64,000 bases of DNA from Pseudanabaena sp. PCC 7367 (GTDB lineage Bacteria > Cyanobacteriota > Cyanobacteriia > Pseudanabaenales > Pseudanabaenaceae), in assembly GCF_000317065.1 (NCBI RefSeq), contig NC_019701.1, forward strand, positions 1,827,001-1,891,000, given 5' to 3'. The notes under the pieces were generated by a model that was not told the DNA's origin, searched no databases, and was given only the letters and a program-made list of their open reading frames with translations. Positions 31,878 through 34,362 of this stretch are shown piece by piece; position 1 is the first letter of the stretch; every line of letters begins with the position of its first letter. The position numbers were made by a program, and so were the translations under genes.

Positions 31878-32591
31878 TTAAGTCAGCATGAAATAGGCCA
31901 CCATTGGCAGCACTGTAGCTACAACTAATAGCACTACCACCAGCACAGTCGAGCTTTGCGTATCAGTTTCTTCGGCCGTGGCATAGGTACTAGCAGCAAA
32001 GGTTTTTTCTTGAACTACTGGCTCGCCAGGATCAGGTTGGCCAGATAAAACTGCCACCAATCGATCGCTGCCATCACTGAGGGCTTGGTTAAATTGTTTC
32101 TTTTGAGCCGGATACAGCACATTGGTGTTAGCAATACTCTGGGCGATCGACTCCGGCATGATTGCCTCAACTTCTGCGCCAGTCACGATCGCACTGCGAT
32201 AGTCTTCGGTCGCTAGCAAGATCAAAGCCTGGTTAGCCTTCTCGTCATCGGTGGGAAACCACTTATCAAATACTTGCTGTGCAAACTCATCGGTGGGTTG
32301 GCCATAATCAATCCGGTCAATCGTGACAAAACGCACCTCTAACCCGGTTTGCTGATTTAGTTGCTCAAGATCGCTATAAACACCATTTTCAATGCTGGGG
32401 CTAATTACATCCGCAAAATCAATCACCCAGGTACGATCGCCTTCAAGCAAACTAGGCACATCATCTACAGTGGCAGCGATCGCAGGCGTAACGAAAACTA
32501 GTAGGGCAAGCAGGATAGCGATCGCCCCCAAACCCCAGCTTTTCAGAACGATCGGCAACTGCCTAAGGGATAAAAGGGGTAGATATTTCAT
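31878..32591 (-). CDS. psb32: Photosystem II repair protein Psb32, TPM domain
   Basis: Psb32 is a TPM-domain protein reported to protect photosystem II and speed its repair. ATG 32591 (MKYLPLLSLRQLP) is preferred over TTG two codons upstream. A signal or anchor segment lies at ~20-40 (AIAILLALLVFVTPAIA). The TPM domain follows, opening WVIDFADVISPSIENGVYSDL and containing VRFVTIDRIDYGQPTDEFAQQVFDKWF and IVTGAEVEAIMPESI. The C-terminal TM helix (STVLVVVLLVVATVLPMVAYF) places the domain in the lumen or periplasm. It is divergent from dnaN, with the replication origin in between. A 16-bp perfect palindrome at 32693-32708 is a possible operator. Confidence 0.85.
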   Translation of the reverse strand: MKYLPLLSLRQLPIVLKSWGLGAIAILLALLVFVTPAIAATVDDVPSLLEGDRTWVIDFADVISPSIENGVYSDLEQLNQQTGLEVRFVTIDRIDYGQPTDEFAQQVFDKWFPTDDEKANQALILLATEDYRSAIVTGAEVEAIMPESIAQSIANTNVLYPAQKKQFNQALSDGSDRLVAVLSGQPDPGEPVVQEKTFAASTYATAEETDTQSSTVLVVVLLVVATVLPMVAYFMLT

Positions 32592-32692
32592 AACCAAAAT
32601 TCAAAAAATAATAAATAAATTTCAAAGCTCAACTGCTTAATAAATCAGCTTTTGATTTAACCATTCTATCGGCTCATTTCGATCGCTCCCAA

Positions 32693-32799: not shown

Positions 32800-33100
32800 G
32801 CCTGGGGAAAACCTGTGGAAAACGCCCATTTTCCTGTGGAAAACCTTCCATCTACTGTGGAAAAGAAAACCCTTAATGTGGAAAACTATTCATAGGTATA
32901 AATACCCTGTGGAAAACTGGTATATTTATCCACATCATTTTCCACAGGGAAAAATCGCTGAATGGCTTGATATAAATCGATCTTGGTACTTTTTCCACAA
33001 TTTCCACAGCCCCTACTACTACTATAAGAGTATTAGTTTTATAAGAGAAAATATTAGAAGAGTTAAAAAATTTTTTCTTCAAAAAGGCAATCTAAAAAGT
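32800..33100. other. Chromosomal replication origin (oriC)
   Basis: The gap between psb32 and dnaN contains eight consensus DnaA boxes: TGTGGAAAA at 32814, 32835, 32856, 32877 and 32908; TTATCCACA at 32926; TTTTCCACA at 32938 and 32991. There are two near-matches: TGGGGAAAA at 32803 and ATTTCCACA at 33000. The first cluster points left, the second right. After the last box come GCCC (33009-33012), four CTA triplets (33013-33024) and an AT-rich, A/T-run-containing stretch to ~33080 that can serve as the unwinding element. Position next to dnaN is typical of bacterial origins. dnaA itself is not in the window. I reject the ORFs on either strand here (32873-33115). Confidence 0.93.
33000..33080 (+). 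other. DnaA-trio and AT-rich unwinding element
   Basis: Tandem DnaA boxes (32991-32999 and the near-match 33000-33008) are followed without a gap by a short GC cluster, then CTA x4, which reads as 3'-GAT-5' repeats on the complementary strand. This is the order described for the basal unwinding system of bacterial origins. About 55 bases of A/T-dominated DNA follow, including TTAAAAAATTTTTT. Confidence 0.75.
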
Positions 33101-33222: not shown

Positions 33223-34362
33223 ATGCGACTAGTTTGTCCCCAAAATCAACTCGCTTCAAACCTTTCTTTGGTAGGTAGGGCAGTCGCTTCGCGCCCTACT
33301 CATCCGGTTTTGGCGAACATTATGCTCAAGGCTGATGATAAAAATCAAACCGTTGAGCTGACTGCTTTTGACCTGAATCTGGGAATTAGAGTGAACTTTG
33401 CTGCGACAGTAACTGAACCTGGGTCGATCACTCTGCCGGCGCGATTGTTTAGCGATATTGTGTCCCGGTTGCCAGATGAGGATGTGACCTTGACCCTGGA
33501 AGCAGGAGAAGCGATGGCAGCGATCGCCTGTGGTTCGGGACGCTACCATGTCAACGGTTTGCCGATCGAAGAGTTTCCTGATTTGCCCACGATCGATGAC
33601 GGCGAAACTACCTACCTACCGATCGAAGCTTTGATCTCTGGCTTGGATGCCTCTCTGTTTGCGGCGGCCACCGATGAAACGAAGCGGGTTTTGACTGGTG
33701 TGCATTTGACGGCTAATGCTGAGAGCCTGGAGTTTGCCGCCACAGATGGACATCGCCTGTCGGTAGTGAATGCAGAATTGCAGGATGCCGATTCACCCAC
33801 CCCCTTTGCCGATAGTTTGGAAGTAACAATCCCGGCCAGGGCATTACGGGAATTGGAAAAAATGCTGGGATTGCAAACAGAAGGGGCGATCGCAATTAAG
33901 TTTGATCAAACCCAGATGATTTTCCAGGGAGCCAGTCAAACGCTCACCTCGCGGCTTTTGGATGGTAACTACCCCAACTATCGCCAATTGGTGCCAACCA
34001 GCTTTGAACGGCAAATTTCCCTGGATCGCAAAGCATTTATTGCGGCTCTGGAACGGATTGCAGTGCTGGCCGATCAAAAAAACAATATTGTTAAATTGTC
34101 GATCGATTCAACTGGCCAAGAAATAGCGATTTCTGTGGATGCGCCTGATGTGGCTACAGGGCGAGAATCGATTCCAGCCCAGATTTCTGGCGATGACCTG
34201 GATATTGCTTTTAATGTGAAGTATCTGCTCGATGGCTTGAAGGCGATCGACAGTAGTGATATTCAAATTCAGCTTAATACTGCCACTAGCCCTGCGATCA
34301 TTACACCGATCGGCGCCCTGAAGATGACTTATTTGATTATGCCAGTGCAGATCAGGAATTAG
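33223..34362 (+). CDS. dnaN: DNA polymerase III beta sliding clamp
   Basis: The ring-shaped processivity factor that tethers the replicative polymerase. Three clamp domains of ~120 residues are visible: MRLVCPQNQLASNLSLVGRAV..., then TDETKRVLTGVHL with SLEFAATDGHRLSVV, then FERQISLDRKAFIAALERIAVL. The peptide-binding pocket end is YLIMPVQIRN. The 379-residue length is normal. The gene begins about 120 bases after the origin's unwinding region and is transcribed away from it. A 7-bp inverted repeat (GTAGGGC/GCCCTAC at 33275-33299) lies in the first codons but encodes the conserved GRAVASRPTHP block, so it needs no separate explanation. Confidence 0.96.
   Translation: MRLVCPQNQLASNLSLVGRAVASRPTHPVLANIMLKADDKNQTVELTAFDLNLGIRVNFAATVTEPGSITLPARLFSDIVSRLPDEDVTLTLEAGEAMAAIACGSGRYHVNGLPIEEFPDLPTIDDGETTYLPIEALISGLDASLFAAATDETKRVLTGVHLTANAESLEFAATDGHRLSVVNAELQDADSPTPFADSLEVTIPARALRELEKMLGLQTEGAIAIKFDQTQMIFQGASQTLTSRLLDGNYPNYRQLVPTSFERQISLDRKAFIAALERIAVLADQKNNIVKLSIDSTGQEIAISVDAPDVATGRESIPAQISGDDLDIAFNVKYLLDGLKAIDSSDIQIQLNTATSPAIITPIGALKMTYLIMPVQIRN

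Follow-up and report, generated by a model that had tools for sequence, protein, structure and literature searches.

A phased DnaA-box array with a predicted unwinding unit beside dnaN, very probably the DnaA-dependent oriC of Pseudanabaena sp. PCC 7367, and a second phased array upstream of DUF2811

The genome of Pseudanabaena sp. PCC 7367, now Thalassoporum mexicanum, comprises a chromosome of 4,557,046 bases and a smaller replicon of 328,634 bases. The window analysed here is a 64,000-nucleotide stretch of the chromosome (C2:1827001-1891000), and coordinates are those of the window unless prefixed with C1 (the smaller replicon), C2 (the chromosome) or L126. Near its middle lies the gap between two divergent genes, psb32 on the left (31878–32597, minus strand; NCBIfam NF047379, 248 bits), coding for a photosystem II repair protein, and dnaN on the right (33223–34362, plus strand; TIGR00663, 356 bits), coding for the DNA polymerase III beta clamp. 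This gap contains an array of ten DnaA-type boxes within 206 bp, eight of which are exact copies of TTWTCCACA. The replication gene dnaN is a conserved neighbor of the array, and the genome encodes an intact, full-length DnaA (TIGR00362, 505 bits), both of which are expected of a DnaA-dependent oriC. The dnaA gene itself is at C2:61, distant from dnaN, and this separation counts against an origin at the array, yet it is usual among cyanobacteria.

The boxes fall into two oppositely directed groups. The left group, on the minus strand, starts with a degenerate box, TTTTCCCCA (32803–32811), 11 bp before the first exact box; most relatives have an exact box at this place. It continues with copies of TTTTCCACA at 32814–32822 (L2), 32835–32843 (L3, 21 bp past L2), 32856–32864 (L4), 32877–32885 (L5) and 32908–32916 (L6, 31 bp past L5). 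The right group, on the plus strand, contains box R1, TTATCCACA (32926–32934), box R2, TTTTCCACA (32938–32946), 12 bp further on, and an abutting pair, R3, TTTTCCACA (32991–32999) and R4, ATTTCCACA (33000–33008). The full spacing series is 11-21-21-21-31-18-12-53-9. An initial annotation of this DNA had listed the same boxes, including the degenerate one and the oppositely oriented right-hand boxes at 32926, 32938, 32991 and 33000, and its positions, strands and spacings are right to the base. It had also placed the left boxes on one face of the helix, and this holds as well: the five left-cluster spacings are phase-coherent at 10.5 bp (R = 0.98, Rayleigh p = 0.008), and the relatives agree. 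Weak sites resembling boxes, halfway along the 21-bp gaps, show no conservation across relatives.

Clustering of this kind is far above chance, as expected of a DnaA-dependent oriC. The 1.6 Mb of chromosome sampled contain 40 exact copies of TTWTCCACA, and outside the array no two of them are within 300 bp of each other; the probability of eight or more exact boxes in 206 bp is ∼1e-23.

The initial annotation overlooked a composite element at the right of the array (32991–33100), in which the abutting boxes R3 and R4 are followed by a short spacer, a repeat run and AT-rich DNA. The order is TTTTCCACA-ATTTCCACA-GCCC-CTACTACTACTA, where the GC-rich spacer GCCC occupies 33009–33012 (plus strand) and the run consists of four CTA repeats (33013–33024, plus strand; 3'-GAT-5' on the bottom strand). 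This DnaA-trio run is the predicted start of unwinding and a predicted single-strand binding site for DnaA, and the stretch that follows it (33025–33100, 80% AT) is the predicted unwinding element. A basal unwinding system (BUS) is defined by DnaA-boxes, a short GC-rich spacer and DnaA-trios of the form 3'-GAT-5', with one or two boxes, a spacer of up to 16 bp and at least three NAN trios (PMC8287927); the element described here has two boxes, a 4-bp spacer and four CTA. The boxes proximal to the unwinding element point toward the AT-rich DNA and the exact box-plus-trio pattern is single in the genome, as would be the case for a DnaA-dependent oriC, and the unit is near-invariant among relatives. 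Judged from its sequence, the unit fixes both the predicted site of opening and the strand. The DNA fold of the unwinding region is nothing special (z = -0.8). In the 31-bp gap between L5 and L6 there is also a near-palindrome, GTATAAATAC (32896–32905; GTATTTATAC in most relatives), whose consensus GTATWWATAC is kept across families. It is not a DnaA box, and is possibly the site of another origin-binding factor.

Comparison of dnaN-upstream regions shows that relatives bear the same array. Among 28 aligned loci, 22 share the same right-cluster offsets and another five deviate by at most 1 bp; the left spacing 11-21-21-21-31 is likewise found repeatedly in this set. Linkers are 44–52% identical to those of the window in relatives, as against 91–98% for the boxes, so that the spacing comparison proposed in the initial annotation shows base-exact spacing retained in spite of deep linker divergence, and therefore points to continuing selection on the array. 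Where lineages differ, they do so mostly by whole helical turns (an extra 21, 11+21, or 31). Taken together, 144 spacings from left clusters show strong phase coherence at 10.5 bp (Rayleigh R = 0.92; p = 0.007 when each distinct spacing is counted once), although periods of ∼9.5 to 10.5 fit alike, such that the data speak for whole turns rather than an exact pitch. Unlike the fixed array, the interval separating the tandem boxes and trios from the start of the first long ORF is variable, at 109–705 bp across relatives. When the class was searched with a sequence profile built from the region (profile R1), 352 of 390 genomes gave a match at E <= 0.001; phasing by helical turns is thus the rule among cyanobacteria rather than unusual, as had been supposed.

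Cyanobacteria that have lost dnaA offer a natural experiment. The DnaA C-terminal domain is absent from 18 of the 390 high-quality genomes. The profile R1 sample included 13 of these; the profile fails to match 11 and matches the other two marginally (4.7e-4 and 5.9e-4), although this contrast is partly confounded, as dnaA-positive members of the same families also match the profile weakly. (The 18 non-matching genomes that stand outside the matches listed were identified by elimination.) The near-absence of the architecture from dnaA-less genomes fits DnaA binding as the probable function of the array. We note that the genomes of one family (f2; 1.5–3 Mb, probably marine picocyanobacteria) match profile R1 weakly or not at all although dnaA is present, and carry two to five DUF2811 copies each; their origin layout may differ.

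The initial annotation had named a genome-wide GC-skew minimum as a check on origin function, and here the outcome is mixed. We sampled 80 stretches of 20 kb, equivalent to 35% of the chromosome. Within the window the cumulative skew has its minimum and sign change at ∼34–35 kb, beside the array, albeit as a local effect only, but no significant global V is seen in the sampled 35%: the best-fitting two-arm origin is at 2.18 Mb (permutation p = 0.37), and a fit that forces the origin to the array (1.86 Mb) gives p = 0.16. In a closed-chromosome relative of the same architecture (G014, 40 stretches) the skew is also weak (p = 0.083). The absence of a global V weakens the case for oriC little, because irregular GC skew is common among cyanobacteria (PMC7198777). 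The genome also contains ten copies of a helper ATPase gene of IstB/IS21 type (the IS21 name being inferred from family relation), all of identical score, with four on the smaller replicon (C1:40648, 61835, 82304 and 200679) and six on the chromosome (C2:1778880, 2135914, 2446601, 2531494, 2910746 and 3990165). Recent IS21-type transposition may have scrambled the strand skew.

We conclude that 32803–33100 is very probably the DnaA-dependent oriC of the PCC 7367 chromosome, and thus that the function suggested in the initial annotation is well supported. The observations behind this are the sequence and spacing of the box cluster, its adjacency to dnaN, the class-wide conservation of the architecture, the single trio unit, the presence of full-length DnaA, and the near-absence of the array from dnaA-less relatives. 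The irregular skew raises the question of whether the array is a platform for DnaA that has been conserved but has ceased to be the main origin. In that case the chromosome would be polyploid and replicate without DnaA or from multiple sites, as in Synechocystis PCC 6803, and the array would persist as a relic or backup. Irregular skew in cyanobacteria does tend to accompany lost dependence on a DnaA-oriC system, and some cyanobacteria retain dnaA without needing DnaA (PMC7198777). But a relic would not be expected to be under the continuing selection indicated by its base-exact spacing, nor to have all ten boxes and four perfect trios intact, and the ten identical IS21-type helper genes could account for the scrambled skew instead; we regard this explanation as improbable. 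More improbable still is that the boxes act chiefly in transcriptional control of dnaN or psb32 by DnaA and not in initiation. They do lie upstream of both psb32 and dnaN, which diverge from this region, and DnaA is a known transcription factor (PMC11317965), but relatives keep the array fixed at widely differing distances from the dnaN start, and transcriptional control leaves the trio unwinding unit with no role. Initiation and transcriptional control may of course coexist.

By analogy with homologous systems (PMC4674748, PMC6478999, PMC8287927), we infer DnaA occupancy, unwinding and origin firing at 32803–33100. DnaA would load on the six same-direction boxes of the left array, whose 11-21-21-21-31 spacing in whole turns would place it on one face, and also on the oppositely directed right array. 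A DnaA-ATP filament would then grow from the abutting boxes at 32991 and 33000, across GCCC and onto the bottom-strand 3'-GAT-5' repeats at 33013–33024, opening the AT-rich DNA rightward (33013–33100) beside dnaN, and the helicase would be loaded in the opened DNA next to that gene. The comparison across genomes also provides a cheap marker of DnaA dependence in a phylum where such dependence has been lost several times.

By the exact box-pair pattern, the sole other dense cluster in the genome lies at C2:2949421-2949483 (L126 1589–1651). It has helically phased boxes in one direction with 12-21-21 spacing, and is upstream of a 74-aa DUF2811 gene (L126 1936–2160) that is unlinked to dnaA. Most genomes of the family have this one-direction tetrad, whereas a reversed control pattern gave zero matches, and in every genus inspected the tetrad is located ∼300–350 bp upstream of the 74-aa DUF2811 (PF10929); in other cyanobacterial families phased boxes precede most of the DUF2811 genes examined. 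Among the 76 best-scoring DUF2811 loci from named genomes, a set biased towards filamentous lineages, 75 have an exact box within 700 bp upstream and 63 have two or more; 183 of the 184 boxes share one direction, and the 700 bp downstream contain none. For comparison, two same-strand boxes occur in none of the 3,360 700-bp windows taken from two genomes.

The distribution of DUF2811 follows that of dnaA. In the same 390 genomes it is absent from 13 of 18 that are dnaA-less and from two of 372 that bear dnaA (Fisher p ∼1e-18, albeit with genomes that are not independent). Joint losses have occurred in at least five lineages (f36; f42; f32 g92; f32 g89; f34 g152), two of which, g89 and g152, include sister genomes that retain both genes. 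Five genomes are dnaA-less yet carry DUF2811 (G355, L327; G385, L324; G161, L319; G426; G439). The copy in G355 is broken by two stops and the match in G439 is weak, as if decay of DUF2811 followed loss of dnaA.

These patterns make DUF2811 a candidate DnaA-linked gene. A regulatory role for the second array appears more likely than that of a datA-type titration site because of the fixed downstream DUF2811 and a promoter-like TTGACA-17-CACAAT; we also considered the array as a rival origin, which is less likely for the same reasons. We found no RNA family near the second array. For the DUF2811 protein, a Pfam search gave no significant family besides DUF2811, no relative of solved structure was found, AlphaFold models are too poor for use (pLDDT 67 and 58), and none of the papers searched names DUF2811 together with cyanobacteria; that it is a ribbon-helix-helix protein is a guess from its sequence. 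On balance we favor, with some reserve, the explanation that the second phased array, which is not linked to oriC and has a fixed place upstream of DUF2811, puts this gene under DnaA control, and that its product has a part in DnaA-dependent replication, perhaps in feedback regulation or as an effector of the cell cycle, and can be dispensed with once dnaA is lost. If DnaA does bind the second array, DUF2811 would be a partner or target of the replication initiator that has gone unstudied, and one shared by all main cyanobacterial lineages.

The PCC 7367 origin is of a known kind, common in its class, with phasing that is the cyanobacterial norm; what the analysis adds is the unwinding unit, a base-exact comparative oriC blueprint (boxes, phase, unwinding unit and palindrome), a negative result for global skew, and DUF2811 as a lead. 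Cyanobacterial oriC regions beside dnaN with TTTTCCACA boxes have been described, with footprinting in Cyanothece (PMC4674748), and the S. elongatus oriC has 11 boxes adjoining dnaN (PMC3480399). The region described here resembles those of Synechococcus elongatus PCC 7942 and Cyanothece ATCC 51142 in its dnaN neighbor, its TTTTCCACA boxes and a dnaA gene located elsewhere (PMC3480399, PMC4674748), although the published Cyanothece ATCC 51142 map has three boxes only. We found no description of exact helical phasing, or of the right cluster with its 53-bp and 9-bp spacings, in the papers on cyanobacterial oriC that we consulted. Binding by S. elongatus DnaA is ATP-dependent (PMC6478999), and the protein acts in vitro on its own predicted DnaA-box/trio unit, giving strand separation that depends on the boxes and trios (PMC8287927). 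As in the Bacillus subtilis BUS (DnaA boxes #6/#7 plus DnaA-trios), tandem boxes are aimed at a short GC-rich spacer, 3'-GAT-5' repeats and AT-rich DNA (PMC8287927); in contrast to B. subtilis, there is a second, oppositely directed and phased six-box array on the far side, and the unit here is a predicted one. Oppositely directed DnaA arrays are also a feature of the Escherichia coli and Thermotoga maritima origins, where helical phase matters (PMC4285127, PMC10316083), although the main spacing in PCC 7367 is 21 bp (12-bp gaps), whereas DnaA pairs of E. coli and T. maritima prefer gaps of 2–3 bp (PMC11317965, PMC10316083).
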